In this document: positions 9,330-35,893 of the stretch, piece by piece
Layout of the letters: each line of letters begins with the position of its first letter
Numbering within the stretch: position 1 is the stretch's first letter
Origin: Candidatus Tiamatella sp.
GTDB taxonomy: Archaea; Thermoproteota; Thermoprotei_A; Sulfolobales; Acidilobaceae
DNA length: 42,015 nucleotides
Assembly (NCBI GenBank): GCA_015522645.1
Contig: WALV01000069.1
Coordinates: 1 to 42,015, forward strand
Direction: 5' to 3'
Translations under genes and position numbers: made by a program
The notes under the pieces: model-generated
Told to the model about the DNA's origin: nothing
The model's input: the letters and a program-made list of their open reading frames with translations, nothing else
Database searches by the model: none

Positions 9330-10880
9330 GTGAAAATAGACAAGGTCTTAATAGTAGATCTCTATACCGATGAACCGTCGGGTCTAGGTGTATCGCCTTA
9401 CATTGACGTGTATCCTAGATACCTAGCTGGTGCTATATGGCACCACAATGGTTCCTCCACAGTAATTCACTATGTTACAGCGGACGAGTTCAGAGCTACA
9501 TCCTGGCTTAAGCGGGCAAACACGTATGATATAGTTTTCTTTGTAGGGGGAATAACAGTCCCGGGAAGGTATCTGGACGGTAATCCGCCGACACGTAGGG
9601 AATTGTTCAGATGGAGCCGATTGCTGACTAATCCGTTGAAAGTACTGGGAGGGCCCGTATCTAGGTTTGGCACCGGTATCAGAGGAGGGGAAGAAGCTTA
9701 TTCCATTAGGGACCTAGAAAAGGCTGGTATAGATGTCGTTGTCACTGGGGATTTAGACGAGTATGTTAGGGATCTTATTGAAAACGGGTTGGAGGGGGCT
9801 GCTACCTGGAGAACTAGGAGGACTTATGGGTTTGTAGATATCTATGCAGTGAAAGGAGCCCGAATTGTGAGAATGCATAGAAGACTAGGTCACGGGCTTA
9901 TCGCTGAAATAGAATCTTACCGCGGCTGCTCCAGATGGGTATCAGGAGGCTGTAGTTTTTGCATTGAACCGCTATACGGTAAGCCTATACAGAGAAACAT
10001 AAAAAGCATAGTCAAGGAGGTTGAAGCGTTATACTGGCACGGTGTTATTGACTTTAGACTAGGGAGGCAGGCAGATTTCTATGTCATAGGTTCCCACGAT
10101 TTAGGAACCTTGGAATGGCCTAAACCTAATCCTCGGGCCATTAGATCCCTGTTAACTGGTATTCGAAACGTGGCTCCTAATTTAAGAACCTTACATATAG
10201 ACAATGTAAACCCCGGTACAATAATCAGGTATCCTGAGCAGTCTATTGAAATCACTAAAACTATTATAAAATACCACACTTCGGGGGATGTTGCAGCTTT
10301 AGGAATAGAAACAGCTGATCCTAAGGTAGCCAAGATCAATAATCTGAACACTGTGGCCGAAGAGGCGATTACAGCAATCGAGCTCTTGAATAAATATGGG
10401 TCAATTAGGGATGGAGACGGTGTCCCCCATTTGCTTCCAGGCGTGAATTTCGTCTTAGGACTACCGGGTGAGAGTAGAGACACGATAGAGTTAAACAAGA
10501 AATTCCTCAAGGAGATCTTGGATAAAGGGCTTCTATTAAGGAGAGTCAATATTAGACGCTTGATGGTTATTCCAGGGACAAGAGTATCTAGCTTAAAACC
10601 TAGAATCTCAGGGAAATGGGTTAGTAGGCAGTCTAGTTTCGTAAAATGGGTTAGAAATCGTTTTGATAGAGAAATGCTCAGGAGGGTGTTTCCTCCCGGC
10701 GTGATAATTAGGGATGTCTATGTAGAGGAATACTCTTCTGGTTATAGTTTGGGAAGGCCTCCCGGTAGTTATCCTCCAACGGTCAAGCTCAAAGGATCTA
10801 TTCCCCTTTACTCGAAGGTTGATGTCATCGTTAAAGGCGTGGCTTCATCTAGATCTCTTAGAGTCGAAACTGTCGGATGA
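9330..10880 (+). CDS. Radical SAM protein with C-x7-C-x2-C cluster motif (COG1031-like)
   Basis: A 516-residue radical SAM protein. The N-terminal 180 residues resemble a cobalamin-binding-type Rossmann unit (KVLIVDLYTDEP, then a GGPV strand). The iron-sulfur cysteines are C200, C208 and C211 in YRGCSRWVSGGCSFCIEP, a C-x7-C-x2-C spacing that I recall from the archaeal COG1031 group rather than the usual C-x3-C-x2-C. DFRLGRQADF and NFVLGLPGES follow as later radical SAM core motifs. The last 70 residues look like a small beta domain. The reaction is unknown. GTG 9330 is the first in-frame start, with GAGG 12 bases upstream. It is the second gene of the FAU-1 operon. Confidence 0.8.
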   Translation: MKIDKVLIVDLYTDEPSGLGVSPYIDVYPRYLAGAIWHHNGSSTVIHYVTADEFRATSWLKRANTYDIVFFVGGITVPGRYLDGNPPTRRELFRWSRLLTNPLKVLGGPVSRFGTGIRGGEEAYSIRDLEKAGIDVVVTGDLDEYVRDLIENGLEGAATWRTRRTYGFVDIYAVKGARIVRMHRRLGHGLIAEIESYRGCSRWVSGGCSFCIEPLYGKPIQRNIKSIVKEVEALYWHGVIDFRLGRQADFYVIGSHDLGTLEWPKPNPRAIRSLLTGIRNVAPNLRTLHIDNVNPGTIIRYPEQSIEITKTIIKYHTSGDVAALGIETADPKVAKINNLNTVAEEAITAIELLNKYGSIRDGDGVPHLLPGVNFVLGLPGESRDTIELNKKFLKEILDKGLLLRRVNIRRLMVIPGTRVSSLKPRISGKWVSRQSSFVKWVRNRFDREMLRRVFPPGVIIRDVYVEEYSSGYSLGRPPGSYPPTVKLKGSIPLYSKVDVIVKGVASSRSLRVETVG

Positions 10881-12189: not shown

Positions 12190-12211
12190 CGTCTGCTAGG
12201 TGTTCGAGGCT

Positions 12212-13534
12212 TTGAAGATAGTTTTCCTCTACAGGTTTCTCGGAGAATCGAAGTATAGTCTTGCCCAGCTCAGAGCTGCACTAGAAAAGAAAATGCTTGA
12301 ACGTGGAGTTCCATTAATAACAAGGTCTTATAGAGATCCCAGCGTAATGTTATCCGATGCTCAATACTTCGCGAGCAAGGGATACGAGGTATTCATAGGT
12401 TACAGTATTTTGACTACTATTCTACCTAGTCTATTAAATGAAATTAAACAGATAACAGGATCTGTTAAGGGGAAGAATATACATCTCCTTGCGGGAGGGC
12501 CGCATCCTACAGGGGACCCATATGGTACATTAAAACTGGGGTTCGAAATAGTTTTCCACGGCGAAGCCGAGGAAAGTCTACCGGAGTATTTAATGAGATT
12601 CGTAGAAAAGGACGACTATCTGAGAGTCAAGGGAATAGTTACATGGATGGACGGTAATCCCGTGTTTACAGGTAAGCGAAATAAAGTCAACCTCAACGAG
12701 CATCCCCCCTTCCCATACTGGGACGGTATATTTTCACCGATCGAAATAACAAGAGGATGCGTCTGGGGTTGTAGGTACTGCGAAGTCCCCTATATGCACG
12801 GAGCTGTAATCAGGCATCGATCACCGGGTAACATATTATACTATGCGAAAATGTTTTGGTCGAGTGGACGAAGAGACCTGAGATTCATAACTCCAAATGC
12901 TTTTTCTTACGGCTCGCAGGATAAAGACGTTGATGTAAGTAGGTTATGTTGCCTGCTAGATAAACTAAAGAGGGAAAGTAAAGAATATTTGGGGCGAATA
13001 TTTATGGGCTCTTTCCCTAGCGAAATAAGACCGGAACACGCGGCTATAGATGACGCTGTGAGGTGTCTTAGAAGAGCGGTGTCAAATAATAGTGTAATAA
13101 TTGGTGCGCAAACGGGCTCACCAAGGCTTCTAAAAATGCTTAACCGAGGGCACGATGTTGACACCGTTCTAGAAGCAGTTGAGAAGTTGAATAAACACGG
13201 ATTCAGTGTGGATGTGGATTTCATATACGCCTTGCCTTTCGAGGAGGAGGAAGATCTACTTGAAACAATAAATCTAACTGAAAGACTAGTATCGAATTAC
13301 AATGCTAGAATACATGCACACTACTTCCTCCCACTTCCAGGCACTCCTCTCGAAGAATTTAACCCAAAGGACCCACCGGAGTGGTTTATGAAGAGACTGA
13401 TGAAGCTAGTTGGTAGGGGAAAACTTTTCGGTGACTGGCTGAAACAAAGGGAGATCAGTATGAAGATTGTTGAACTACGCGAGAAAGGGATTATAGTGGG
13501 TTTAAAAGGATGGAGAAATATTAGGAAACACTGA
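12212..13534 (+). CDS. B12-binding-type radical SAM protein
   Basis: A 440-residue radical SAM protein with an N-terminal cobalamin-binding-like domain (residues about 1-140; GGPHPTGDPYG and FHGEAEESLPEYL are typical of the B12/radical SAM class) and a radical SAM core with the standard C-x3-C-x2-C at C183, C187 and C190 in RGCVWGCRYCEVP. It resembles the archaeal MJ_1487-type group, from memory. Members may methylate or rearrange unactivated carbons; the substrate is unknown. GTG 12200 lies in the GGTG ribosome site, so TTG 12212, 9 bases after it and preceded by GAGG, is the probable start (MKIVFLYRFLGE). A box C/D RNA begins 18 bases after the stop. Confidence 0.82.
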   Translation: MKIVFLYRFLGESKYSLAQLRAALEKKMLERGVPLITRSYRDPSVMLSDAQYFASKGYEVFIGYSILTTILPSLLNEIKQITGSVKGKNIHLLAGGPHPTGDPYGTLKLGFEIVFHGEAEESLPEYLMRFVEKDDYLRVKGIVTWMDGNPVFTGKRNKVNLNEHPPFPYWDGIFSPIEITRGCVWGCRYCEVPYMHGAVIRHRSPGNILYYAKMFWSSGRRDLRFITPNAFSYGSQDKDVDVSRLCCLLDKLKRESKEYLGRIFMGSFPSEIRPEHAAIDDAVRCLRRAVSNNSVIIGAQTGSPRLLKMLNRGHDVDTVLEAVEKLNKHGFSVDVDFIYALPFEEEEDLLETINLTERLVSNYNARIHAHYFLPLPGTPLEEFNPKDPPEWFMKRLMKLVGRGKLFGDWLKQREISMKIVELREKGIIVGLKGWRNIRKH

Positions 13535-13615: not shown

Positions 13616-13713
13616 AGTCCTACTACTTAAGATTTATATTTTTCACATGCAAATACACCTTTCTTATGTGAAGCACGTTATAATTCTCGAACAATCCTGG
13701 AGGTGTGCTTTAT

Positions 13714-14874
13714 TTGGTATTCAATCACCTAGATCCACAGTTACCAGTTATAAGAAACATGGTCAGAGAATTCGCTGAAAAACGGGTCGAACCCTTGGCT
13801 AGGAAGATTGACGAGGAGAACACTATCCCCCAAGATCTCCTAGACTTACTAGGAGGAATGGGTTTTACGTCAATGAGAGTCCCAGAAGAATACGGTGGCC
13901 CCGGATTTACGTTACTCCAGACTGCAGTCGCCGCTGAGGAATTAAGCAGAATAAGTAGTGGGGTAGGAATACTGGCAACAGTATCAGGGGACATGGTCGC
14001 TTATCCTATAATGGAATACGCGTCTGCTGATCTAAAAGAGGAATACCTAGCCAAGCTAGCGAATGGAGGAATAGGGGCTTTCGGGTTAACAGAACCGTGT
14101 TGCGGAAGCGATGCAGCATCTCTAACAACAAAAGCAGTCAAAGAAGGCGACGAATACGTTATTAGTGGTAGGAAAACTTTCATCACAAACGCAGTGTATG
14201 CTGATTTCTTCCTTGTAGCGGCGAGAACCGGGAAACTAGAAGATAAGCATAGAGGCGTATCTCTGTTTGTGGTTGACCGATCCAACTGTATCGAAGTCTC
14301 AAAGCTAGACATGATGGGGTATCGGGGGTCTGGAACAGGCGAGATCCTCTTCAATGAATGCAGGGTTCCCAAGGAGAATAGAATAGGGAGAGAAGGAGAA
14401 GGGTTTAAGATAGCAATGATGGCTTTAAACGAAGGTAGGATCGTTACTGCGTCAACAGGACTAGGGGTGGCTCAAGCAGCGTTTGAAGATGCATTGAAAT
14501 ATGCTAGGACAAGAACCAGTATGGGTGCATCACTAATTGATCATCAAATGGTAGCTTCCCATATAGCTGATATGTCCGTTAAACTCGAAGCTATACGAAG
14601 CCTCATATACATGGCTGCATGGGAGGCTGATCAAGGGGATTCCGACTATATTAGACTAGCTAGTATAGCGAAATACTCGGCTGCCAAGTGGGGTACAGAC
14701 ATAGTAAGGTTAGCAATGCAAGTTCACGGAGGATTTGGTTATAGTAGAGAATCCAGAGTAGAGAGGCTGTACCGAGATATAAAGATGATTGAAATAGGAG
14801 ACGGTACTAATGAGGTTCAAAAACTAGTTATTACTAAAGCATTAACAGGGAAAATCCATCCATTTAAACCCTGA
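13714..14874 (+). CDS. Acyl-CoA dehydrogenase
   Basis: A 386-residue flavoprotein of the acyl-CoA dehydrogenase family, of normal length. It would introduce the alpha-beta double bond into an acyl-CoA, passing electrons to ETF. Motifs in order: the N-terminal helical domain (MGFTSMRVPEEYGGPG), FGLTEPCCGSDAAS, the FAD-binding ARTRTSMGASLIDHQ, and QVHGGFGYSRESRVERLYRDIKMIEIGDGTNEVQ. At the position of the usual catalytic glutamate of short- and medium-chain enzymes (YEGT) this has Asp (GDGT). TTG 13714 lies 8 bases after GGAGGTG; GTG 13705 is within that site and less likely. It is encoded about 19 kb from the EtfABCX cluster that could take its electrons. The acyl chain length is not predictable. 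Confidence 0.9.
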   Translation: MVFNHLDPQLPVIRNMVREFAEKRVEPLARKIDEENTIPQDLLDLLGGMGFTSMRVPEEYGGPGFTLLQTAVAAEELSRISSGVGILATVSGDMVAYPIMEYASADLKEEYLAKLANGGIGAFGLTEPCCGSDAASLTTKAVKEGDEYVISGRKTFITNAVYADFFLVAARTGKLEDKHRGVSLFVVDRSNCIEVSKLDMMGYRGSGTGEILFNECRVPKENRIGREGEGFKIAMMALNEGRIVTASTGLGVAQAAFEDALKYARTRTSMGASLIDHQMVASHIADMSVKLEAIRSLIYMAAWEADQGDSDYIRLASIAKYSAAKWGTDIVRLAMQVHGGFGYSRESRVERLYRDIKMIEIGDGTNEVQKLVITKALTGKIHPFKP

Positions 14875-14981: not shown

Positions 14982-16175
14982 ATGTCTAAGATACTGACCA
15001 GGCAATTAACTGATAATCTATACTTATTACGTGTCGATGACGAAAAGACGCATTACTTCGAGTCATTATGGGAGATACCTGAGGGTATAACCTACAATGC
15101 ATACCTACTCAAAACAAGAGAAGGGGACGTCCTATTCGATGGCTGGAAATCAACCTTTACAAATGAACTACTCGATACACTCTCAACATTGACCAGTCCT
15201 TCCGACTTGAAATACATGGTTGTTCACCACATGGAACCCGATCATACTGGTTCTATAAGGACGCTTACGCGTTTCTATAGTAAAGCAAAAATACTGGTCC
15301 ACCCTGTTGGGAAAAAAATGCTGGAGAAATTCTATGGAATTCCTTCCAAGAGAATAGAGATCGTAAAAAACGACCAGACAGTTAAATTAGGAGGGAAACA
15401 TCTGCGATTCTTATATGCTTCATGGATACATTGGCCTGAAACAATATTTACTCTAATCGAGGAGGATAATTTACTCTTAACTTGCGATGCCTTCGGAGGG
15501 TACGGCTTGCCTGACTGCGTAACAGACCTAGAATGCATACCGGATAGCTATATGTATTCAGCTGAAAAGTATATGGTAACAGTAGTGGGTCATTATAGGA
15601 GAAACCTATTAACAGGTATATCTAAGGTTGAACAATTAGAGTATAAGTTGAATGGTATCCTCCCCGGCCATGGTCTACTATGGCTGAAAAACCCGCAAAC
15701 CATTATAGATGCTTATAAGATTTGGGCTAACGGCGAACCGGTAGGAAACAGGGCAACAATCGTTCAGGTTACAATGTACGGCCTAACTGATAATCTCGTA
15801 TTATCCCTCGAATCACGTCTCCGCTCAAGCGGTTATCGAATACGTAGGTTTGTCCTAAACGATGAGGGTAGACCTAATCTATCCGACATACTCGCTATAG
15901 CCAATAGGACTAAATTACTAGTACTAGCCACTGGAACCTATGAGGCAAAGGTGCATCCATTAATGCAGTTTATTATCGAGGAAATCAAAGAGAAAATCCC
16001 TCCAACTGGAAAGAATGTTATAATAGTCACATCCTATGGATGGGGGAGTGTTGCTGGAAGAGAAATAAAATCAGTACTCGAGAAATCGGGATGGAATATA
16101 ATTAACGTGATAGAATCTGATTTAACCCGTGGAACACTGCCAAGCATACAGCTACCGCTAGCTAATTCGGGCTAA
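14982..16175 (+). CDS. Flavodiiron protein (FprA-like oxygen/NO reductase)
   Basis: A 397-residue flavodiiron protein, the normal length for the two-domain core. The N-terminal MBL-like half carries the di-iron ligands: H, E, D and H in VVHHMEPDHTGS, H in WIHWPETIF, D in TCDAFGGYG and H in LPGHGLLW. The C-terminal flavodoxin half has TMYGLTDN for FMN phosphate, then LATGTYEAKVHP and TSYGWGSVAGREI. In anaerobes the enzyme reduces oxygen to water, or nitric oxide to nitrous oxide, using rubredoxin or F420H2; no rubredoxin gene is adjacent. ATG 14982 follows GAGGGG at 7-base spacing. It likely gives oxygen protection. Confidence 0.92.
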   Translation: MSKILTRQLTDNLYLLRVDDEKTHYFESLWEIPEGITYNAYLLKTREGDVLFDGWKSTFTNELLDTLSTLTSPSDLKYMVVHHMEPDHTGSIRTLTRFYSKAKILVHPVGKKMLEKFYGIPSKRIEIVKNDQTVKLGGKHLRFLYASWIHWPETIFTLIEEDNLLLTCDAFGGYGLPDCVTDLECIPDSYMYSAEKYMVTVVGHYRRNLLTGISKVEQLEYKLNGILPGHGLLWLKNPQTIIDAYKIWANGEPVGNRATIVQVTMYGLTDNLVLSLESRLRSSGYRIRRFVLNDEGRPNLSDILAIANRTKLLVLATGTYEAKVHPLMQFIIEEIKEKIPPTGKNVIIVTSYGWGSVAGREIKSVLEKSGWNIINVIESDLTRGTLPSIQLPLANSG

Positions 16176-16246: not shown

Positions 16247-17671
16247 TTGAAGGAACCAAAAGTAGCTGGACTAGATATAGGCACTAGTAAAATCAGCCTA
16301 GTAATATACGATGACGGATTCAATGTAATAGACGAAATAACAGTACCGAATGAAACGGATCTAGTAGGACCAGTAGCAGAGCAAAACCCAGATGTGCTTT
16401 TAGCGAAGGTTAAAGGACTAATGGATAAGGCGGTGAAGGAAGGAGTAAAAATAATTGGAATAGCCACATACAGAGGCTCTCTGGTGATCTGGGATAAGAG
16501 CGGAGGCAAACTTTCTCCAATAATAACATGGATGGATTACAGGTCAGCCATAAACTACAGTAAGCTTCCATTAAAAGCTAGGTTCGCGGGTAAACTACCG
16601 GTTATAGGATCAGCTTTCTCCCCTGAGTCCATGGCTGTTAAATTAAAAACCTACCTGATAGAGAATCCCAAGCTAAGCGAGTTACTAGAAAAGAAAAACG
16701 GTTTTGCATGGAATGTAGATGGGTACATAGCATACTCCCTTTCCGGTAAATTCATAGCAGACCCATCTACGTCTGCCTTGACGGGTCTAATCAACCCCAG
16801 AACGCTGAAGCCTCTGAATATCGTTCTCAAACTTTTGGAGCTTCCCTCTATAGCTTTCCCTCTGATGCCTGGATATGATGAAATGAATATCGAAACTATG
16901 GGACTAGAGGTTAGAAGCCTTCTAGGGGACCAACAAGCAGCGAGCATTGGTTTACAATGCCTGGAAAAGGGATGCATGAAAATCGGCCTCGGAACAGGAT
17001 TCTTTATCGACTACTCACTAGGCAGCGAGTTTCCGGGTACCTTTCTTCCAGAAGGTTTGCTGCCAATAATTCTATACGTTAATACGACAAAAAGGGTTAT
17101 GGGAGTGGAAGGATACCTAACGGGAATGGGTAAATCAGTTGAATGGTTCGTTGAAAACCTTTTTGGAGGAAGCTATAATAGCATGGATAATAGTATAAAC
17201 AATACTAGTCCTCCTATCGTGATCCCATACCTATGGGGGGGTAGAACTCCGCGTCTTCACAAGGGGGTTTCAGGGATAATCGGCCTAGAACCCGGATACA
17301 ATATTGAAAGTATAGCTAATGGATTAGCACACGGCGTGTCTGCAGCATTGTCATATGTATATAATAAAATTACGGCTAAATATGGGAGTCCGAGCAAAAT
17401 ATTTGTGATGGGTGGCTTAACAAGGCTAAATAAACTCAATGAACTCGTAGCATCCTATCTCAACACGAAAATACTGGTTTCGAAAAGAAGGGATGTAACC
17501 GCTTTAGGAGCAGCGTTACAAGCAGCGGAATCAAGAGGCTGGCATCTAACACCAGATATAGAATTCGTTGAAATGGACCCCAATCCTGATCTCGTTACAG
17601 TTAATCCTCAAACTATAGTAAGATGGGCTAGAATGATTCAGTCCAAAACCCGTATAAGAGAAGAGGTGTAA
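16247..17671 (+). CDS. FGGY-family carbohydrate kinase, glycerol-kinase-like
   Basis: A 474-residue FGGY kinase. The ATP-fold start AGLDIGTSKISLVIYD (8-22), YRGSLVIWDK and ITWMDYRS (75-100, compare RETTIVWDK and WQDRR of GlpK), GDQQAA (227-232, with the catalytic Asp227), the GLGTGFF loop and LHKGVSGIIGL all follow glycerol kinase more than xylulose or gluconate kinases. It should phosphorylate glycerol or a related polyol; specificity is inferred. TTG 16247 is preceded by GAGGAT. It heads a four-gene operon with an Fe-S protein and two FAD enzymes, and its stop codon touches the next gene's GAGGTG site, so the set is translated together. Confidence 0.85.
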   Translation: MKEPKVAGLDIGTSKISLVIYDDGFNVIDEITVPNETDLVGPVAEQNPDVLLAKVKGLMDKAVKEGVKIIGIATYRGSLVIWDKSGGKLSPIITWMDYRSAINYSKLPLKARFAGKLPVIGSAFSPESMAVKLKTYLIENPKLSELLEKKNGFAWNVDGYIAYSLSGKFIADPSTSALTGLINPRTLKPLNIVLKLLELPSIAFPLMPGYDEMNIETMGLEVRSLLGDQQAASIGLQCLEKGCMKIGLGTGFFIDYSLGSEFPGTFLPEGLLPIILYVNTTKRVMGVEGYLTGMGKSVEWFVENLFGGSYNSMDNSINNTSPPIVIPYLWGGRTPRLHKGVSGIIGLEPGYNIESIANGLAHGVSAALSYVYNKITAKYGSPSKIFVMGGLTRLNKLNELVASYLNTKILVSKRRDVTALGAALQAAESRGWHLTPDIEFVEMDPNPDLVTVNPQTIVRWARMIQSKTRIREEV

Positions 17672-17675
17672 CGTC

Positions 17676-18557
17676 TTGCATGATGTAGTGAAAACATTTA
17701 CGCGGTGTGCTTTATGTCCCGGTGTATGTGTAACGTACTGCCCTATATATATGAACACGCATATTAGAGCTTCCGCACCGAATAATCTAGCAAGGCTAGG
17801 ATTGAAATACTTGAAAGGCTATGAAAGCTATGATCCTGCCTTATGGCTATGCACTGGCTGTAGAGAATGTGAGTATAATTGCCCTATTAGTAACCCATTA
17901 TGGAATGCTGCCAGGATATCTAGGGGGAAGAAAAGCCGGGTAGAAGCCGTGAAAGTGGAAACTAAAAACCTAGGAGGCAGAGGCTCTAGCTTACTAGTAG
18001 TTTCATCAATTATCCCGGATCAAGCCTTGGTTGAATACTTAAAACAGTTTTATAGCATACATTGGTTAGACACGGGTTCAATATACATGGCTTATTGGAG
18101 CGGTAGCGAAGTTCAATTAAACCTTGACGCTTTCGACTATATTATAATAGATGATTTAGATGTAACTCCCGCATTAATTCCTGGTAAATTGAAGGGTAAA
18201 GTGATTTACTCTATTCAGCTACTTGAGATGATGGGGTATAGAAGCATACTTGAGAATAAAGCTTTCGTTCTCCATGTTCCATGTAAAATCAGTGTCGATG
18301 GGAAGGAATTACTTATCAATGTTTCATATAAAGTTCTAGGAAAACCGATTAGAACGATTAGCAAGTGCATCGGGGGAGGTGGTGGGCTTCCCGAAAAGCA
18401 TCCAGTCATTGCAAGTGAGCTAGTGCATTCTGCGATGAAGGGAAGCAGGAAAGATTACTTAGTAGTTACACTCTGTTCCCGGGCTAAGACTCATTTACTG
18501 AGCTCTGGATATCAGGCAAAAACACCATTGGATTTCATCGCAGGTGATATGAATTGA
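17676..18557 (+). CDS. Two-cluster Fe-S subunit, GlpC/GlcF-like
   Basis: A 293-residue iron-sulfur protein. Two 4Fe-4S motifs stand at the N-terminus: C11-x2-C14-x3-C18-x3-C22P and C59-x2-C62-x2-C65-x3-C69P. The remainder resembles the CCG half of GlpC, GlcF or HdrB, but is degenerate: C231 in KCIGGGGG stands alone rather than as a CC pair, and C267 is isolated. Such subunits take electrons from a partner FAD dehydrogenase and pass them to membrane carriers. TTG 17676 sits 6 bases after GAGGTG. The stop overlaps the next start (TTGA), which ties it to the FAD-linked oxidase that follows. Confidence 0.83.
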   Translation: MHDVVKTFTRCALCPGVCVTYCPIYMNTHIRASAPNNLARLGLKYLKGYESYDPALWLCTGCRECEYNCPISNPLWNAARISRGKKSRVEAVKVETKNLGGRGSSLLVVSSIIPDQALVEYLKQFYSIHWLDTGSIYMAYWSGSEVQLNLDAFDYIIIDDLDVTPALIPGKLKGKVIYSIQLLEMMGYRSILENKAFVLHVPCKISVDGKELLINVSYKVLGKPIRTISKCIGGGGGLPEKHPVIASELVHSAMKGSRKDYLVVTLCSRAKTHLLSSGYQAKTPLDFIAGDMN

Positions 18558-19936
18558 ATAGGGAGAGGTTTATAGAACAGGTACGGAAGTTGCTTGGTGA
18601 CCGTTGGGTTATAACAGGTGCTTGGGAAACTTATCCTTATTCTAGGGACTACTGGCCATTACTCGTTTACAGAGAATTGAGAGGATTAGAACATGTTTCT
18701 CCCGCGGCGGTAGTTCTCCCAGAAACAGAGGAAGAAGTAACGGAGATCACTAGACTTGCAGAAGAAAACGATATAATACTAGTACCTTATGGGGGAGGTT
18801 CAGGTGTTCTTGGAGGCGCAGCACCTGAAAGTGACTGGGTGGTAGTTGATCTCTCACGGTTAAACTGGATCCGCTGGTATGACGAAAAGGCAGGCATAGT
18901 CGATGTAGGTGCAGGCGTGTACCTTAGATTACTGGAGGAATGGCTTCAAAGTCAAGGCAGAACGCTAAGACATTTCCCTCAGTCATATCCTGAAGCCGTG
19001 ATTGGGGGGCTTGTCTCAACTAGGAGTATAGGGCAATACTCAACAGGCTACGGTGGTATAGAAGATATGATTGTTGGTTTGAATATAGTTATCCCCAGAA
19101 TAGGGAAATTACAAGTTAAGCCGGTTCCAAGACGAAGTGTTCTCTTACCTTTAGACCATATGTTTATAGGAAACGAGGGCCTCTACGGTATAATAACCAG
19201 AGTATATCTCTCCACCTATGAATTACCAGAGTGCTCTGAGAAGGTAGGTTGGAAGAACGAATCATTTAATGATGCATTAGAAAACGCTCGCATAATTGTT
19301 AGAAAGAGAATTCACCCAGAGCTTTTCAGAATATACGATGAACGCGAGTCAACTCTGCATTTCGGTGAGGATGGAAGCATTTCGATAGGTGTGATTGAGG
19401 GTTCTTGCAGGATTGTTGAAGCTAAAATAGAAGATCTCGGGGAATTGATTGGGAAAGACATACGCTCGGGTAGTAGTTATGCTGAGAAATGGCTGGATAA
19501 AAGGTTTAATGTAATAGAAGACCTCTGGAAACTATACGAGGTAGGTATGGGATTTGAAACCATAGAAGTTTCAGTTCCATGGGGTTGGGCCTATCCTCTA
19601 TACACGGACAGCCTTCGTAAATTAGACTCAATAGAGGGATTATATTTTGCTGGTGTTCACGCAAGCCACTTCTATCAAAGTGGAGCTGCATTATATTATA
19701 CAACAGCTTATTCTCTAGAAAAGATAGATGATGTTTACAGGGAGATATGGGATACCTTAATGGAGGAGGCTTCCAAGCATTATGGCAGCATATCCCATCA
19801 TCATGGTATCGGTAGGATGAGACTTAAATACCTGAAGCTTGAGTATGGAGAAGAAGGAATACATTTCCTACGTCAAGTCAAGAAGGCAGTAGACCCTTCC
19901 AGTGTATTGAGGGACGACCCATTGAGGCTTGGGTAA
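18554..19936 (+). CDS. FAD-linked oxidoreductase, alkyl-DHAP-synthase-like
   Basis: A 460-residue protein of the vanillyl-alcohol-oxidase/GlcD fold. FAD-binding marks are VPYGGGSGVLGG (78-88), an IGGLVSTRSIG...YGGIEDM segment (150-172) and IGNEGLYGIIT (205-215). Features shared with alkyldihydroxyacetonephosphate synthase (AGPS) rather than plain lactate or glycolate oxidases are HPELFRIYD (R259), the place of the phosphate-binding Arg, and the triple histidine SHHHGIGR at H415-H417. It probably acts on a glycerol-phosphate-like compound, as an oxidase or dehydrogenase passing electrons to the Fe-S protein. Start TTG 18554 overlaps the previous stop and has GGTGAT upstream. A lipid-synthetic role cannot be excluded. 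Confidence 0.8.
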   Translation: MNRERFIEQVRKLLGDRWVITGAWETYPYSRDYWPLLVYRELRGLEHVSPAAVVLPETEEEVTEITRLAEENDIILVPYGGGSGVLGGAAPESDWVVVDLSRLNWIRWYDEKAGIVDVGAGVYLRLLEEWLQSQGRTLRHFPQSYPEAVIGGLVSTRSIGQYSTGYGGIEDMIVGLNIVIPRIGKLQVKPVPRRSVLLPLDHMFIGNEGLYGIITRVYLSTYELPECSEKVGWKNESFNDALENARIIVRKRIHPELFRIYDERESTLHFGEDGSISIGVIEGSCRIVEAKIEDLGELIGKDIRSGSSYAEKWLDKRFNVIEDLWKLYEVGMGFETIEVSVPWGWAYPLYTDSLRKLDSIEGLYFAGVHASHFYQSGAALYYTTAYSLEKIDDVYREIWDTLMEEASKHYGSISHHHGIGRMRLKYLKLEYGEEGIHFLRQVKKAVDPSSVLRDDPLRLG

Positions 19937-19938
19937 CA

Positions 19939-20982
19939 TTGAAAATAGGGATCATAGGGGCTGGAATAATCGGTTTACAGGTTGCATATAAGGCTTTATC
20001 TAGAGGGATCGATGTAACAGTCTACGAGCAAGCGTCTGAGCTAGGTTTCGGAGCAAGTGGGCATAATGCTGGAGTCCTACACGTCTTGCAGCCTCCTTTT
20101 ATAAATAGGAAGGCTAGATTAGCGAAGAAAGCTAATCCTTTATATGATAAGCTGTCAGAGGAGCTAGGTTTCAGAGTTCGCCGACTGCCCTTATACCTGG
20201 TATACACTAGCAGGAAGGGGAAGTTTCTGGGAAGCCTTGCATCATACTTACTAAGAACTACGGGTTACAAGACGTCCCTTGCCAGTAGGAATGAGGTTTT
20301 AGGTAACTGTCCTGAGTTATCCAGTGATGTTATTGGTGGAGTGAAAGTTGAGGGGTATGGGACTGTTATGCCTAGAGAAGTTCTATGGGCTTTAGCTAAA
20401 GGTGTAGAGGAGAAAGGTGGGGTAGTAAAGTATTCGACTAAGGTTGAATTGTTGGAAAACAATTCTAGCAAAATCTGTGTGAAACACTCAAATTATAGTG
20501 AATGCCATGATAGAGTAGTAGTCGCGGCAGGAGCTGGAGCAGCTAATCTAGTCTCCAAAGACCTACCCAGGATAGGTTATTATAAGGGCGTCATGGTCTA
20601 TGTCAAACTCGACTGTAACGCTATAATAGCTCCTCTAATCTCTAGTTCACGGTCTAAGAAAACAAAGGGCGGAGGTATAATTCCTTTGCCAGACGGCCGC
20701 GTTCTACTCGGGCCTTCATTCGAAGAGACCAGGAATCCCTGGGATACTAGTGTCTCACCTGAGGAAATAGCCGGTACCGTTAACTTGTACAGTTATCTGT
20801 TACCAAGTATGCCGGAAGTCCTTGGAGCCGATGCTGGAACCAGGGCTAAGAATATGTCAAGAGACGATTTCTACATAAACAAAAAAGGAAGAATAATTTT
20901 GACTGCAGGGATAGACAGCCCCGGGTTCACTGCATCTCCGCTAATAGCAGATATACTTCTAAGGCTTGCTACTTCCCTTTAG
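19939..20982 (+). CDS. FAD-dependent oxidoreductase, GlpA/DAO-like
   Basis: A 347-residue DAO-superfamily flavoprotein with the dinucleotide motif GIIGAGIIGLQVAY at the N-terminus, an FAD-contacting GFGASGHNAGVLH (the GASGxNAG pattern of GlpA and L-2-hydroxyglutarate oxidase), VVVAAGAGAANL, and a C-terminal GIDSPGFTASPLIAD. With a glycerol-kinase-like gene and a GlpC-like Fe-S protein in the same operon, sn-glycerol-3-phosphate dehydrogenase is the best guess; 2-hydroxyacid oxidation is the alternative. It lacks the C-terminal GlpA extension. TTG 19939 follows the previous stop by 2 bases. Its 3' end overlaps the convergent SCP2-like gene by 14 bases. Confidence 0.82.
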   Translation: MKIGIIGAGIIGLQVAYKALSRGIDVTVYEQASELGFGASGHNAGVLHVLQPPFINRKARLAKKANPLYDKLSEELGFRVRRLPLYLVYTSRKGKFLGSLASYLLRTTGYKTSLASRNEVLGNCPELSSDVIGGVKVEGYGTVMPREVLWALAKGVEEKGGVVKYSTKVELLENNSSKICVKHSNYSECHDRVVVAAGAGAANLVSKDLPRIGYYKGVMVYVKLDCNAIIAPLISSSRSKKTKGGGIIPLPDGRVLLGPSFEETRNPWDTSVSPEEIAGTVNLYSYLLPSMPEVLGADAGTRAKNMSRDDFYINKKGRIILTAGIDSPGFTASPLIADILLRLATSL

Positions 20983-21406
20983 TTCTCTCCCAAGCAATTT
21001 TAGCACCCTTCACCAGGTAGAGTGCGGCAATAGGGTACCGTAGAACAGTCGCATAGCTACCTTTCTCTATCTTAAGTTTTCTCCTCATCAAGGCTGTAGT
21101 AGGATTCAGTTTACCCTCTAGAATGCTAACCCAATCCTTGTACGTTGCTGTTATAACATATTCGGCTTCAGCTTGACTTGCATCGTTAAACCACTCCACT
21201 CCACGGCAGGTTCCATTGTAGAGATCAAGCTTCCATCCTATTACATTACTATTATAGATATTCTTGACGTCATCCGGAAGTTCGATGGCTTTAAAAAGTA
21301 TGGGCCATACCCATCCTTTTGCACTCTTCTTATATCCTTCAAGCTCGTTTACTGCGTTGCAGAACAGCTCAGCCCATTCGGGTGTTGGAATGAATTTCTC
21401 CTCCAA
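20969..21406 (-). CDS. SCP2-like lipid-binding protein
   Basis: A 145-residue protein that reads as a sterol-carrier-protein-2 fold: an N-terminal helix pair, a strand set with GWKLDLYNGTCRGVEWF, then AEYVITATYKDWVSILEGKLNPTTALMRRKLKIEKG, the characteristic SCP2 stretch in which a membrane-facing helix is followed by the KxKIxG strand. SCP2 domains bind acyl-CoA or other lipids. TTG 21406 follows AGTGATC, a good match to the rRNA tail. It sits between the glycerol-type operon (overlapping its last gene by 14 bases, opposite strand) and an alcohol dehydrogenase. A lipid-breakdown link is plausible but unproven. Confidence 0.75.
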   Translation of the reverse strand: MEEKFIPTPEWAELFCNAVNELEGYKKSAKGWVWPILFKAIELPDDVKNIYNSNVIGWKLDLYNGTCRGVEWFNDASQAEAEYVITATYKDWVSILEGKLNPTTALMRRKLKIEKGSYATVLRYPIAALYLVKGAKIAWERTKGK

Positions 21407-21446
21407 ACTCGATCACTTCCACATGTTTAGAAATAGACATAGTTAT

Positions 21447-22610
21447 TTAATACATGTTCTCAAGAAGGGATTTTATTTCTTCAGGGGATGGAACCACTGG
21501 AGCGAAAACTATATCAGCGTCTTGCAAAGCGAGAAATGGGACTTTATCCACTGCCTCAGAGTATTTCTCTTTACTAATACCAGCATCCCTGAATCTAGTT
21601 GGGAACCCCAAGTTCCTATAGAACTCTCTGACTGCCTGCACAATGTTCTCGGATCCCCCGTTTATATACACACTCAGAATTCTTGCTAACTTCGTGTATT
21701 TACCAGCTACTTCATCGCTTTGACTGATGTTATACTCCATAACGTAAGGTAGAACCACACCTACAGTTAAACCGTGGTGTGTACCTAATACACTTCCAAG
21801 AGGATGAGCGATAGCGTGCGCCATACCTAATCCACTATTAGAGAACGCCGCACCGGCCAATGTGGCAGCTATATGCATTTTACTAATCGCATCCTCGTCT
21901 CCCTTCACTGCTCTGGGGAGATATTGGAAGATTAACGTAGCTGCCTTCTCAGCCAATGCATCGGAAAGAGGGTTAGCCTGGTTTGAGACGTATGCTTCCA
22001 TGGCATGTGAAAGTGCATCAATCCCCGTAGCTATCCTAAGGTTACTCGGTAGGTTCTTCACCATTTCGGGGTCAAGGATAGTTGCGTATGGGACTACTTC
22101 AGGGGATCCTAGAGCGATCTTTATTTTATCTCCATCAACGGTATCTGTGAGTACGACTCCCAGTGTTGCATCACTCCCAGTTCCACTAGTCGTCGGTATA
22201 GCTATCAATACCGGTTTCCTTACCTCTAGGCCGATAACTTCAAAGGGACTAACGTCTCTAACATTATATTCAGGTCTAACGTGTTTAACCAACCCTGCCT
22301 TAGCCGCGTCTATAACACTGCCTCCTCCAACAGCGATAAATACGTCTGGATTAAACTCACTTGCAATACTTGCAATTTCGTCTGCAACGGATATAGGTGG
22401 CTCGGGAGGCACTTTATCGAAGACCTTAAACGGAATTTCAGCCTCTTCTAATACAGCTAGAACCTTTTTTACTAGACCTATTCTATTGAGAGTTTCATCC
22501 GTTATCACTAGAGCTTTAGATGACCCAATCGTGGCTATTAGACTGGAAAGCGAGTCAGCTAAGCTTTCGTTGAAAACTATTCTCCTAGGTAAAACAGCTT
22601 CTGGCAACAC
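21447..22610 (-). CDS. Iron-containing alcohol dehydrogenase
   Basis: A 387-residue group III alcohol dehydrogenase. NAD(P)-binding GGGSVIDAAKA is at 95-105, IPTTSGTGSDAT at 138-149, and the iron ligands D198, H202, H265 and H279 lie in GIDALSHAMEAY and GMAHAIAHPLGSVLGTHHG, matching FucO ligands shifted by two. It interconverts alcohols and aldehydes or ketones. GTG 22610 is preceded by GGTG at 5 bases; TTG 22607 is equally possible. A 40-base gap separates it from the SCP2-like gene downstream on the same strand. The substrate is not readable from sequence. Confidence 0.92.
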   Translation of the reverse strand: MLPEAVLPRRIVFNESLADSLSSLIATIGSSKALVITDETLNRIGLVKKVLAVLEEAEIPFKVFDKVPPEPPISVADEIASIASEFNPDVFIAVGGGSVIDAAKAGLVKHVRPEYNVRDVSPFEVIGLEVRKPVLIAIPTTSGTGSDATLGVVLTDTVDGDKIKIALGSPEVVPYATILDPEMVKNLPSNLRIATGIDALSHAMEAYVSNQANPLSDALAEKAATLIFQYLPRAVKGDEDAISKMHIAATLAGAAFSNSGLGMAHAIAHPLGSVLGTHHGLTVGVVLPYVMEYNISQSDEVAGKYTKLARILSVYINGGSENIVQAVREFYRNLGFPTRFRDAGISKEKYSEAVDKVPFLALQDADIVFAPVVPSPEEIKSLLENMY

Positions 22611-29962: not shown

Positions 29963-31378
29963 TTGGTTTCACTAGTGATAGACAAAGACAGGTGTCCATC
30001 CATACATACATTATTTAAATGGTCTCAAAATAACGCTGGGATAACTATTACCGGGAAGTCCTTAGAATCTGTGGCTAGAGCCAGAGAAGTACTATTGAAG
30101 GAATCCAAGCGGCGGACGGTATATGGAATACATACTAGACTTGGAAAACTTTATGATTCAAAGTATCTATTGGATCCGAGTTATGAGGAAACGGTTATAA
30201 ACGAACATGCTGTTGGCGTTGGTCCTTTAACCTCTCCTCAAATAGGCCGTCTCTTTCTCGCGATCAGGGTTATCCAAGCTACGAGAGGATTCACAGGGAT
30301 ACGGCCGGAAACAATCGAGCGCCTAGTAAAGCCTCTCGAATGTAACGCTGCCCCTGCCATTCCTGTAAGAGGTAGTGTAGGTGCTTCAGGTGATTTAGCA
30401 CCAACCGCCCATCTTGTAAGCCAATTTCTACTGGGAAAAGGTAAGGTCTGGGTTAATGGTGAATTAGTAGATGCTAAAAGAATGCTTGGAGACTGTGGTT
30501 TAGAAAAATGGACGCTTGACAGAGGAGAAGCTCTCCTACTCGTAAACACAACAGCGTACAGCACCGCATTGTTGGGATACTCATTGGAGTTAACAAGAAT
30601 TCTCTTCGAAGATGTAATCGAGGATACATTGCGTATAGGTGAGATTATAGGTGCGAACTGCGAGCACTGGTCCCAGGTAGTCTCATTAGCAAAAAGACAT
30701 CCGGGTATGAAGAAGGTGCTTGAAACATTATCGAGAAACTGTAAGGGTGAGCAAAGAAGATTACAAGACCCATATTCATCTCGTTGCGCTCCAAATATAC
30801 TCGGAGCCATTCAGGACGGCCTGGATTATATCGAGCAAATCGTGGCTAATGAAACGTGTAGTGCATCCAGTAATCCAATATCGGTTCAGGAAGGAGTCGT
30901 GCATCAATGCGGTTTTCATGCAGTATATCCTGCACTGGCTAGTGATTATACGGCAATACTGCTAGCATGGATAGCTAATCTAATAGAGAGAAGAGCGAAT
31001 AAATTATTAGATGATAACTATGCAAATCTACCTAAATTCCTTGCACATTCGAAGAGCAGTGTCGGGGGTATGATCCTTCACTACTCTATAGCATCACTGG
31101 CATCTGAAATAAGAGCAGACTCGGCTCCTAGGAGTGTGCATAATATTCCTACGAGTCTAGATCACGAGGACATAGTATCTATGTCCCCGAATTCTGGGTT
31201 AAGGTTGCTAAGAATGCTCTCACTGTTGACCGATGAGTTATATCTAGAGAAAGCCTTAGTGGAGATAGCTGAACAAGTAGGAAAGGGCGGTCACCCGGAT
31301 ATAGGAAAAATATACGAATACTACAAAGCGTTAGCCGAAGATGTGAAAAGGAAATATGGTATTCCCCAGTGCTATTGA
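29963..31378 (+). CDS. MIO-dependent amino acid ammonia-lyase, histidine-lyase-like
   Basis: A 471-residue member of the histidine/phenylalanine ammonia-lyase family. The ASG triplet that cyclises to the MIO cofactor is A141-S142-G143 in GSVGASGDLAPTAHL. H82 in EHAVGVG, the QDPYSSRCAPN stretch, SSNP and HEDIVSM follow histidine ammonia-lyase. Two usually fixed segments differ: YGIHTRLGK in place of YGVNTGFG, and VNTTAYS in place of NGTQ, so the substrate may not be histidine. TTG 29963 follows GGTG at 8 bases. No other histidine-degradation genes are present. It overlaps the convergent membrane-protein gene by 7 bases. Confidence 0.85.
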   Translation: MVSLVIDKDRCPSIHTLFKWSQNNAGITITGKSLESVARAREVLLKESKRRTVYGIHTRLGKLYDSKYLLDPSYEETVINEHAVGVGPLTSPQIGRLFLAIRVIQATRGFTGIRPETIERLVKPLECNAAPAIPVRGSVGASGDLAPTAHLVSQFLLGKGKVWVNGELVDAKRMLGDCGLEKWTLDRGEALLLVNTTAYSTALLGYSLELTRILFEDVIEDTLRIGEIIGANCEHWSQVVSLAKRHPGMKKVLETLSRNCKGEQRRLQDPYSSRCAPNILGAIQDGLDYIEQIVANETCSASSNPISVQEGVVHQCGFHAVYPALASDYTAILLAWIANLIERRANKLLDDNYANLPKFLAHSKSSVGGMILHYSIASLASEIRADSAPRSVHNIPTSLDHEDIVSMSPNSGLRLLRMLSLLTDELYLEKALVEIAEQVGKGGHPDIGKIYEYYKALAEDVKRKYGIPQCY

Positions 31379-33321: not shown

Positions 33322-33415
33322 TCTAGACACCTCTCAATAATAATATTTGACTATCCACCATAAAAAGAAATCACGGTTTTGTACCTAAATTATCTACATT
33401 GGGTTGAAAAATCAA

Positions 33416-33430
33416 TTTATATATATAAAA
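33416..33430 (+). promoter_or_regulatory. TATA promoter of the fixCXAB cluster
   Basis: TTTATATATATAAAA is the strongest TATA element in the window, preceded by purines at the BRE position (GAAAAATC). It predicts a start near 33446-33453, so the mRNA would begin very close to the GGGGTG ribosome site and TTG 33460. Confidence 0.6.
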
Positions 33431-33459
33431 AGTTAATCCCCCCATGCGGGGTGTATGTT

Positions 33460-34746
33460 TTGGATGTGAAGAACAAGTGGGATGTAATCATCGTAGGAGC
33501 TGGTCCAGCCGGCTCTGCTGCAGGGTATATGTTAGCTAAGAAAGGCTTTAACGTCCTTATCCTTGAACGAGGAAGGCAACCCGGGTACAAAGAACTTTTC
33601 GGCGGCAGAGTCTATGCGGAACCGCTTAGAGAAATATATGGAAACGATTTAGAGAAGGCGCCTATTCATCGGTGGGTAAAAAGGGAAAAACTCAGCTTTG
33701 TAGATGGCAGTAAGCTTGTATCTATAGAATACCAGTCTGACACCTCTACTAGCTTTACAACTTACTTGCCTCAACTAGCTAGATGGATGGCAGATAAGGC
33801 CGGTGAAGCTGGTGCACTGTTAGTCGAGGAGGTTACGGTTGACAGGATAATATATAAGGACGGTAAAGTTATCGGGGTAGGAAGCGGTTCAGATGAGGTT
33901 TACGCTGATCTTGTTATAGATGCGGAAGGCGTGAATAGGCTTCTCCTAGAAGGGTTGGGTTTAGTCGTAAAACTACAACCTGAGCAAGTAGCTGTAGGGG
34001 CTAAGGAAACTATCAAACTAGGCGAGGACAAAATTAACGAAAGATTCGGGCTTAACAAAGAAGAAGGAATGGCTTGGCTCTTGATGGGAGGAATTACGGA
34101 CTACATTCCAGGAGGGGCTTTTATTTACACTAACAAGGATAGTGTAAGCATAGGTTTAGTCCTACATCTGGGACACGCTATAAAAGAAGTGAAAGACCAT
34201 ATAAGTCAAATGGTTGAGAAACTAAGATTACATCCCCAGCTCAGAAACTTATGGATAGATGGTGACATAATGGAATATGGAGGGCATCTTACACCGGAAG
34301 CCGGACCAGCTATGATGCCCAAAAAACTAGCTCTAAACGGGTTCCTAATAACAGGAGACGCTGGTGGGCTTCTACTCAACGTGGGCTACACGATAAGGGG
34401 AGTAGACTTTGCGGCCTATACTGGCTACCTAGCAGCGAAGGCGGCAATAGAAGCACATGATAAAGGAGGTTTCACTGAACAGAACCTGAAAGCCTATGAG
34501 AGCATGCTAAAGAATAGCTTCGTATATAAAGACCTGACGAGGTTGACTGGAATGCAAGACCTTTATAATGACCCGGGGATGTTCAAGGCTTTGCCTAAAC
34601 TAGCTGTAGGTACAGCTGCCAACGTCTTCGAAATAGATCTGGAAACGCCAGGAGTTTGGAACAGTTTTAACAAAGCGAGAAGGAATGCAGGTTTAGGCTT
34701 ACTCTCACTAGCCTGGAAAGGCTACAGGCTTATGAAGAAGATGTAG
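33460..34746 (+). CDS. fixC: FixC/EtfC-like flavoprotein, ETF-quinone oxidoreductase family
   Basis: A 428-residue FAD protein. It begins with the dinucleotide motif VIIVGAGPAGSAAGYMLAKKG and an acidic strand end VLILERG, has FGGRVYAEPL, then DLVIDAEGVNR, and ends with the FAD motif GFLITGDAGGLLLNVGYTIRGVDFA. In the EtfABCX complex this subunit carries electrons from ETF to quinone and works with FixX. The open frame reaches back to 33379, but the extra residues precede the GGGGTG site; TTG 33460, 6 bases after it, is the likely start (MDVKNKWDVIIVGAG). FixX follows after 13 bases. Confidence 0.92.
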   Translation: MDVKNKWDVIIVGAGPAGSAAGYMLAKKGFNVLILERGRQPGYKELFGGRVYAEPLREIYGNDLEKAPIHRWVKREKLSFVDGSKLVSIEYQSDTSTSFTTYLPQLARWMADKAGEAGALLVEEVTVDRIIYKDGKVIGVGSGSDEVYADLVIDAEGVNRLLLEGLGLVVKLQPEQVAVGAKETIKLGEDKINERFGLNKEEGMAWLLMGGITDYIPGGAFIYTNKDSVSIGLVLHLGHAIKEVKDHISQMVEKLRLHPQLRNLWIDGDIMEYGGHLTPEAGPAMMPKKLALNGFLITGDAGGLLLNVGYTIRGVDFAAYTGYLAAKAAIEAHDKGGFTEQNLKAYESMLKNSFVYKDLTRLTGMQDLYNDPGMFKALPKLAVGTAANVFEIDLETPGVWNSFNKARRNAGLGLLSLAWKGYRLMKKM

Positions 34747-34759
34747 GGGGTGGATGAGT

Positions 34760-35065
34760 TTGTCTCAAGATCAAGGTAAGACGGAAGTAAAACCCATGAA
34801 AATAGATGATATACTGCAAAGAGACGTATGGGATGTGGATCTCGAGCCGCATATAACTGTTGATTCGTCGAAGTGCGAGAAGTGTCCTACAAAGCCCTGT
34901 CTATACCTTTGCCCGGCAGGGTGCTATATTCTAGCCGGAGAAAAAGTGGTGTTCAGCTATGAGGGATGCGTTGAATGTGGAACGTGTAGAGTGATATGCC
35001 CTATGAACGCGATTACATGGCACTACCCTAAGAGCGGTAGAGGAATAATGTATAGGTTCACGTGA
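34760..35065 (+). CDS. fixX: FixX/EtfX ferredoxin-like protein
   Basis: A 101-residue ferredoxin-like partner of FixC. It has a C-x2-C-x4-C-x3-CP set (CEKCPTKPCLYLCP) and a classic C-x2-C-x2-C-x3-CP set (CVECGTCRVICP), then ITWHYPKSGRGIMYRFT, the closing phrase of FixX. It supplies one or two 4Fe-4S clusters for electron passage between FixC and quinone or ferredoxin. GGGGGTGG abuts ATG 34754, whereas TTG 34760 has the normal 7-base spacing and is preferred. fixA follows by 12 bases. Confidence 0.93.
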   Translation: MSQDQGKTEVKPMKIDDILQRDVWDVDLEPHITVDSSKCEKCPTKPCLYLCPAGCYILAGEKVVFSYEGCVECGTCRVICPMNAITWHYPKSGRGIMYRFT

Positions 35066-35077
35066 GAGGTGAGTTAG

Positions 35078-35881
35078 ATGAAAATTGTCCTGGGAATAAA
35101 ATGGGTACCAAATACACAGGCCGTTAGATTCGATCCCAAGACAGGTACTCTCATTAGAGAGGGGGTTCCCAGTATAGTTAACCCGCATGATCTGGATGCC
35201 ACTGAATTCGCGTTACAGTTAAAGGACAAATTCGGTGGGAGAATAACTGCAGTATCAATGGCACCTCCAGCGGCTATTATGGGTTTACAGCATGTAATAG
35301 GAATGGGTGTAGACGACGGTATACTAGCGAGTGATAGAGCATTTGCTGGTGCAGATACTTTAGCTACTAGCTATGTCTTAGCAAAGGTTATAGAGAAAAT
35401 CGGTGGTGTAGACCTAGTAGTTTTCGGCCAGGAAACTATAGACTCAAGCACTGCTCATATAGGAGCACAAGTAGCAAGCTGGCTTAAACTACCCTATGTG
35501 TATTATGTGGAAAAACTAGTTAACTATGACGAAAAGAAGAAGGAGATAGCATTCCTAAGGAAGCTGGAGGATAGAGAGGAAGTCTATAGGATTAAGCTTC
35601 CTGCTGTAATATCGGTTGCAATGCACAGTCAGAAACCCCGTCCCGTGAGGATGTCCTATAAGATAATGGCGAAACTCGAGAACCCCATTCAAATATGGAC
35701 CAACAAGGAAATGGGATTGGATCCTAGGTGTATAGGATTAAAGGGAAGCCCAACCATAGTAGGCGGCATCACGTGGACCCCTGAAGTTCCTAGGAAGAAA
35801 GAGGTATTCCAGGGAGATCCTAAAGAGGCGGTGAAATGGTTGATTGATAAGCTCAAAGAAGAGGGTGTCATCCCATTCTAG
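35078..35881 (+). CDS. fixA: Electron transfer flavoprotein beta subunit (FixA)
   Basis: A 267-residue ETF beta subunit. Family marks are KIVLGIKWVPNT at the start, AVSMAPPAA, GVDDGILASDRAFAGADTLATSYVLA (nucleotide contact) and the VFGQETIDSSTAHIGAQVASWLKLPYV signature. With FixB it forms the FAD-containing heterodimer; in EtfABCX complexes from Pyrobaculum and Thermotoga it binds NADH and bifurcates electrons to quinone and ferredoxin. ATG 35078 has GGTG at 5 bases. Twelve bases separate it from fixB. Confidence 0.95.
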   Translation: MKIVLGIKWVPNTQAVRFDPKTGTLIREGVPSIVNPHDLDATEFALQLKDKFGGRITAVSMAPPAAIMGLQHVIGMGVDDGILASDRAFAGADTLATSYVLAKVIEKIGGVDLVVFGQETIDSSTAHIGAQVASWLKLPYVYYVEKLVNYDEKKKEIAFLRKLEDREEVYRIKLPAVISVAMHSQKPRPVRMSYKIMAKLENPIQIWTNKEMGLDPRCIGLKGSPTIVGGITWTPEVPRKKEVFQGDPKEAVKWLIDKLKEEGVIPF

Positions 35882-35893
35882 AGGTGGTGAACC

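Follow-up and report, generated by a model that had tools for sequence, protein, structure and literature searches.

Alkylglycerone phosphate synthase (AGPS, EC 2.5.1.26) has a hydrophobic tunnel and exchanges the acyl group of acyl-dihydroxyacetone phosphate (acyl-DHAP) for an alcohol, and alkylglycerol kinase (EC 2.7.1.93) phosphorylates 1-O-alkylglycerol. In a 2021 review that sets out the eukaryotic ether-lipid scheme, the oxygen-using AGMO was given as the only known enzyme cleaving the alkylglycerol ether bond (PMC7911779). The genes PA3026-PA3025-PA3024 of the Pseudomonas aeruginosa GliR regulon are strongly induced by GliR together with phospholipase C and the lipid kinase YegS, and a strain deleted for this triad grew normally on glycerol; the authors depicted the triad as working towards synthesis and could assign it no function (PMC8151288). 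In archaeal glycerol catabolism of the GlpK/GlpA type an FGGY kinase with the canonical GlpK signature is combined with a DAO-fold dehydrogenase and varied electron partners, no AGPS-like member being reported, and a term search of the main text of the survey found no mention of an AGPS-like partner (PMC11962113). Here we describe a four-gene operon in a stretch of 42,015 nucleotides of contig WALV01000069.1 from Candidatus Tiamatella sp. (the window, i.e. the whole stretch of DNA that was analysed), which combines a GlpK-like FGGY kinase, an iron-sulfur (Fe-S) protein, an AGPS-family flavin adenine dinucleotide (FAD) enzyme and a DAO-fold dehydrogenase. On the reading that we favour, the operon may serve the catabolism of O-alkylglycerol, the core of ether lipids, in which glycerol is still substituted on one end carbon.

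The four open reading frames (ORFs) lie on one strand at positions 16247-20982 with spacings of +4, -4 and +2 bases, the -4 spacing being a TTGA stop/start overlap (17676-18557 / 18554-19936), and all four start with TTG. The touching and overlapping ends noted in an earlier reading made from the letters alone (the sequence-only reading) were thus borne out, and that reading was also right in placing an AGPS-like gene together with genes for a kinase, an Fe-S protein and a DAO dehydrogenase in an operon of glycerol type. The host genome is a draft of 1.54 Mb in 71 contigs (98.4% complete), and the closest named relative at the locus is an Acidilobaceae metagenome-assembled genome (locus L072, 51%). 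Neighbourhoods were compared at 80 named loci, mostly from other archaea and from bacteria, with counts made within 6 kb and kinship ignored. An FGGY kinase was found near 41 of the 80 and a DAO dehydrogenase (GlpA/GlpD-type) near 55, at least one of the two being near 67/80. The taxa included Thermococcaceae, Archaeoglobaceae, Thermoplasmata, Lokiarchaeia, Actinomycetota, Pseudomonadota, Bacillota, Chloroflexota and Myxococcota; within Thermoproteota many families had the gene set, a GlpB-like protein frequently being present too, and some operons there had full GlpA/GlpB/GlpC-like sets and DUF1667. As for the conservation of the four-gene order, which had been suggested as a check, it is the gene set that is conserved in distant genomes. 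Given this conservation, the four-gene operon is confirmed to be beyond chance, and it recurs, in part, across archaeal phyla and bacteria. The window shares the adjacency of kinase, GlpA/GlpD-type and AGPS-type genes with PA3026-PA3024, the same three families (AGPS-type, GlpD-type and FGGY) being matched by annotation alone; the P. aeruginosa triad is bacterial and has a GlpD-type enzyme, whereas the window has a short DAO protein and an Fe-S protein.

Sequence, fold and tree all identify the FAD enzyme as a genuine member of the AGPS family. Its best PDB matches in a sequence search were AGPS, and a 16-sequence profile searched against PDB gave AGPS with E-values of 7.6e-98 and 3.5e-93, as against 2.4e-61 for D-lactate dehydrogenase and 1.7e-54 for glycolate oxidase. 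When an AlphaFold model (pLDDT 87) was searched with Foldseek, all of the top 37 rows were AGPS (TMq up to 0.89) and LDHD reached TMq 0.83-0.84, so that the structural comparison proposed earlier came out in favour of AGPS. R259, Y381 and H415-417 align to AGPS R419, Y578 and H615-617, and the Foldseek matches included the AGPS mutants R419H (PDB 4bc7) and Y578F (4bca); apart from the residues named by these mutants, the roles of AGPS residues are presumed here. The equivalents of R419 and Y578 were kept in 80/80 named relatives, and so was the HHH motif, which was partly favoured by the search pattern, a pattern that did not include R419 or Y578. At the same positions E, A/H and GEH are found in LDHD and GlcD (the A coming from an engineered H405A LDHD chain), and the GlcD pattern was also seen in the alignment of eight weak archaeal homologues. 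A tree of the AGPS, GlcD and LDHD families, built by a quick method, split the GlcD/LDHD clade from the AGPS clade with 100% support and placed the window enzyme in the latter, with eukaryotic AGPS nested within bacterial members neighbouring GlpD-type genes. The window enzyme has the fold of eukaryotic AGPS (PDB 4bby, 2uuu), its R419/Y578/HHH residues and its side of the tree, but the two are only about 23% identical, the N-terminal extension is missing, R515 and T309 are not kept (V149 at the T309 position), and the enzyme sits in a kinase/dehydrogenase operon and probably acts in the reversed direction.

Escherichia coli K-12 also has an AGPS-type protein, YgcU (353 bits versus 164 for GlcD), in which R419, R515, Y578 and HHH are all present and which grouped in the tree with Bacillota triad members. 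The FGGY kinase gene ygcE is nearby, but the pocket of YgcE differs from that of the window kinase, and electron-transfer flavoprotein (ETF)-like ygcQR and a short-chain dehydrogenase/reductase take the place of GlpA/Fe-S; at this locus (L152, NC_000913 2892657-2903374) ygcU and ygcE stand with ygcN/O and the flavoprotein genes ygcQ/R. A literature search on ygcU/ygcE returned mostly unrelated papers and no functional study. Separately, a second AGPS-like subfamily was seen in Sulfolobales and Vulcanisaeta (L050, L053, L057, L058 and L043 11001-12377) without a kinase, one case adjoining a mandelate racemase/enolase-type gene.

The residues R83, E84, Y135, D245 and F270 form the glycerol-kinase signature, which is extremely well conserved family-wide (PMC3245297), and E84 and Y135 are among the GlpK contacts that hydrogen-bond to the glycerol hydroxyls (PMC3245297, PMC2680290). 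The pocket of the window kinase reads R-G-W-E-D-Q-F, i.e. R83, D245, Q246 and F270 are kept while E84 is replaced by G and Y135 by E; a pairwise alignment made independently against the structure of a glycerol kinase was consistent with this mapping, and the same pocket was found in the sister genome (G060), where the kinase lies on another contig. The score against TIGR01311 (GlpK) was 129 bits, far short of the curated cut-off of 590. Among 53 operon kinases, 49 were GlpK-like, defined by keeping R83, D245 and Q246; E84 and Y135 were both absent in all 49, position 84 being A, S, G or T in 47 of them and position 135 variable. The full signature was kept in 9/9 canonical GlpKs, namely that of E. 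coli and eight from Thermoproteota genomes carrying AGPS-like genes. Fourteen operon-bearing genomes also encode a separate canonical GlpK above the cut-off, so that the two systems coexist, and in four genomes (G015, G039, G055 and G121) the canonical GlpK adjoins a G3P (sn-glycerol-3-phosphate) oxidase-like gene of its own. The broken signature at E84/Y135 ruled out GlpK identity for this protein, which the sequence-only reading had called GlpK-like, and together with the separate GlpK in 14 genomes it speaks against an ordinary glycerol kinase. A mirror-tree comparison of AGPS and operon kinases (r = 0.86, 53 loci) lent support, although the relatedness of the species confounds it.

The other two proteins are more loosely related to the Glp system. 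The DAO protein has the DAO fold and is weakly GlpA/type-2 oxidase-like; it scored 31 bits against TIGR03377 (GlpA), below the curated cut-off of 552.8, and according to Pfam its 347 residues lack the BFD-type C-terminal Fe-S domain that is present at locus L040. The Fe-S protein has two 4Fe-4S ferredoxin motifs of GlpC type, the eight cysteines (C11, 14, 18, 22 and C59, 62, 65, 69) being invariant in 12 relatives, as expected for the two-cluster protein recognised earlier; it has one reduced CCG-like domain where GlpC has two CCG domains, and reached 23.5 bits against TIGR03379 (GlpC; cut-off 279.9). Elsewhere in the host genome (L208, contig C18, 1489-3533) a second DAO enzyme was found with 158 bits to type-2 G3P oxidase, and its neighbour of 280 aa looked GlcG-like by eye.

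Genes of lipid metabolism were found around several of these operons. In four genomes of Vulcanisaeta type the operon has a phospholipase C-family (PF04185) gene next to it, and acyl-CoA synthetase, acyl-CoA dehydrogenase, 3-hydroxyacyl-CoA dehydrogenase/enoyl-CoA hydratase, thiolase and alcohol dehydrogenase genes occur up to about 20 kb away in one or other genome of this type. SCP2 adjoins the operon in three families (the window, G200 and G129) and lies 12-18 kb from it in G121 and the Vulcanisaeta group. The pair of an iron-containing alcohol dehydrogenase (Fe-ADH) and SCP2 recurs in the window (20969-22610), G200, G121 and G060. As a separate observation, this pair is recurrent with or without the AGPS operon (window, L046, L170 and L173), and at another place in the host genome (L175, contig C55) a PF04185 phosphoesterase gene has an acyl-CoA dehydrogenase-like gene in its vicinity.

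An opened kinase pocket, a C2 dehydrogenase and a relative of the enzyme that exchanges the O-substituent at DHAP C1 together suggest that O-alkylglycerol is converted, in a linear series of steps, into DHAP and an alcohol. The FGGY kinase, having lost E84/Y135, would phosphorylate the free end of alkylglycerol, and the DAO dehydrogenase would oxidise C2 of the alkylglycerol phosphate to give 1-O-alkyl-DHAP, at which both starting enantiomers would converge, with the Fe-S protein accepting the electrons of this step. The AGPS-like enzyme would then bind alkyl-DHAP and expel the alkanol as an AGPS-type adduct forms at FAD N5, from which DHAP would be freed by water (or a carboxylate). The released alcohol may be handed to the neighbouring Fe-ADH and from there feed into acyl-CoA oxidation, SCP2 being a possible lipid carrier. 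Overall this would be the eukaryotic entry route to ether lipids (PMC7911779) run backwards, and oxygen would not be used. Substrates, direction, electron path and partners are what we infer here from the observed gene content, families, residues, conservation and lipid context; the catabolic setting with DHAP as the likely product agrees with the sequence-only reading.

Several observations weigh against this proposal. Archaeal diethers carry an ether at C2, and could therefore not enter the pathway directly. The loss of E84/Y135 excludes the standard glycerol pocket without pointing to an alkyl chain, a glycosyl- or otherwise O-substituted glycerol fitting as well. Since a canonical GlpK is missing from the host genome (best matches 129 and 113 bits), the kinase might still serve glycerol in this organism. 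In the FAD enzyme the position of AGPS R515, which we take to be a phosphate contact, is L324. Of the triple histidine and phosphate arginine described earlier, the histidines hold, and the arginine holds if R259 is meant but not if the R515 equivalent is. An arginine at this position was found in 19/80 named relatives as well as in YgcU and was absent in 61/80, and may thus not be a family-wide feature of AGPS. In the DAO protein the pocket loop reads HVLQPPF, unlike the H-x-G-type loops of its G3P oxidase-like relatives. Finally, PF04185 includes phosphatases too, and its adjacency to the operon is confined to one family.

The main rival to the alkylglycerol reading is a different O-substituent: the same logic of kinase, C2 oxidation and AGPS-type substitution at C1 could release the substituent and DHAP from glycosylglycerol, monoacylglycerol or another conjugate. 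We regard this as rather unlikely. In its favour, the kinase pocket is opened at E84/Y135 and otherwise GlpK-like, the variable residue 135 could mean lineage-specific substituents, and AGPS itself works on acyl-DHAP. The lipid context and the co-regulation of the P. aeruginosa triad with phospholipase C and YegS favour a lipid, however, and for acyl esters plain esterases would be enough. Less likely again is ordinary glycerol catabolism, in which the kinase would yield G3P, the DAO and Fe-S proteins would convert it to DHAP and the AGPS-like protein would be accessory or regulatory. The lack of a canonical GlpK in the host, the resemblance of the DAO and Fe-S proteins to GlpA and GlpC and the operons with GlpA/GlpB/GlpC-like sets would fit, whereas the signature broken in all operon kinases, the separate GlpK in 14 genomes, the strict retention of AGPS catalytic residues and the growth on glycerol of the P. 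aeruginosa triad deletion (PMC8151288) speak against it.

Ether-lipid synthesis, with the triad supplying the DHAP from which an AGPS-type reaction makes alkyl-DHAP, the scheme proposed in P. aeruginosa (PMC8151288), would account for the conserved AGPS residues and for the position of eukaryotic AGPS inside a group of bacterial members that have links to GlpD-type genes. It is nevertheless improbable given that a DHAP acyltransferase was not seen beside the AGPS-like gene, that electron-transfer subunits of GlpA/B/C type, like the beta-oxidation neighbours, belong to catabolism, and that ethers in Archaea are made by prenyl transfer. The host genome encodes a canonical sn-glycerol-1-phosphate (G1P) dehydrogenase (466 bits), an enzyme that interconverts G1P and DHAP. 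This weighs against the idea put forward in the sequence-only reading, that the two FAD enzymes make DHAP by oxidising G1P and G3P and share an Fe-S exit. A pair of FAD enzymes together with a single Fe-S protein in one operon would suit it, but we find it slightly less probable still: archaeal G1P is not supported as the reason for the AGPS-like member, since bacteria with G3P-based lipids carry the same set too (see also PMC8151288), the operon kinase is not GlpK and its pocket is wrong for glycerol, and an AGPS-type active site suits a ketone substrate. Least probable of all is a glycolate/lactate-type dehydrogenase working with its Fe-S protein like GlcD-GlcF. The two systems have in common the fold (FAD_binding_4 and FAD-oxidase_C) and an Fe-S partner, and the GlcD model gave 128 bits. 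The window enzyme keeps the AGPS catalytic set, lacks the E, H and GEH residues of LDHD/GlcD and falls outside their fully supported clade, which makes a lactate or glycolate substrate unlikely and ruled out identity with GlcD or D-lactate dehydrogenase; a true GlcD-type gene is present elsewhere in the host genome (contig C8).

The features of the window are collected in the table. The ETF region may be an electron exit for the acyl-CoA dehydrogenase upstream of the operon. Rfam and tRNA scans of the window gave no matches. Further from the operon, a gene of the aromatic amino acid lyase family (histidine/phenylalanine ammonia-lyase type) was noted at 29963-31378 in this hyperthermophile-like archaeon, and a radical-SAM-like ORF without a Pfam match (9330-10880) lies near a TIGR04013 B12/radical SAM protein (12200-13534).

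Table. Operon genes and neighbouring features of the window, with proposed roles where given.
Feature	Position	Strand	Remarks
FGGY kinase, GlpK-like, not GlpK	16247-17671	+	474 aa; Pfam FGGY_N/FGGY_C; proposed substrate O-substituted (alkyl)glycerol
Fe-S protein, cut-down GlpC/HdrD-like electron carrier	17676-18557	+	293 aa; Pfam Fer4_8; two [4Fe-4S] sites and reduced C-terminal CCG-like domain
AGPS-family FAD enzyme	18554-19936	+	460 aa; Pfam FAD_binding_4 and FAD-oxidase_C; proposed alkyl-DHAP ether cleavage
DAO-fold FAD dehydrogenase, short GlpA/type-2 G3P oxidase-like	19939-20982	+	347 aa; Pfam DAO; proposed C2 oxidation of (alkyl)glycerol phosphate
SCP2-family lipid-binding protein	20969-21406	-	Pfam; convergent, overlaps end of DAO gene
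Fe-ADH	21447-22610	-	Pfam; possible fatty-alcohol step
Acyl-CoA dehydrogenase	13705-14874	+	Pfam; upstream of operon, context only
ODP/flavodiiron-type protein	14982-16175	+	Family search; directly upstream of operon
DAO-fold/FixC-like flavoprotein, ETF beta and ETF alpha	33379-36973	+	Context; ETF beta/alpha at 35078-36973

In the open literature we found no paper linking alkylglycerol with FGGY, nor one linking AGPS-type genes with an archaeal glycerol kinase. It is possible, and we suggest it with some reserve, that the triad represents an ancient oxygen-independent degradation of O-alkylglycerol in Archaea and Bacteria, with an ether-cleaving enzyme of the AGPS family and an FGGY alkylglycerol kinase, from which eukaryotic AGPS descends with the opposite direction. 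If true, such an oxygen-free route would matter for what becomes of ether lipids in hot springs, sediments and guts that are anoxic. Uncharacterised operons of P. aeruginosa, Actinomycetota, Caulobacterales and perhaps E. coli would gain a function that can be tested, and there would be a hint at the origin of human AGPS.

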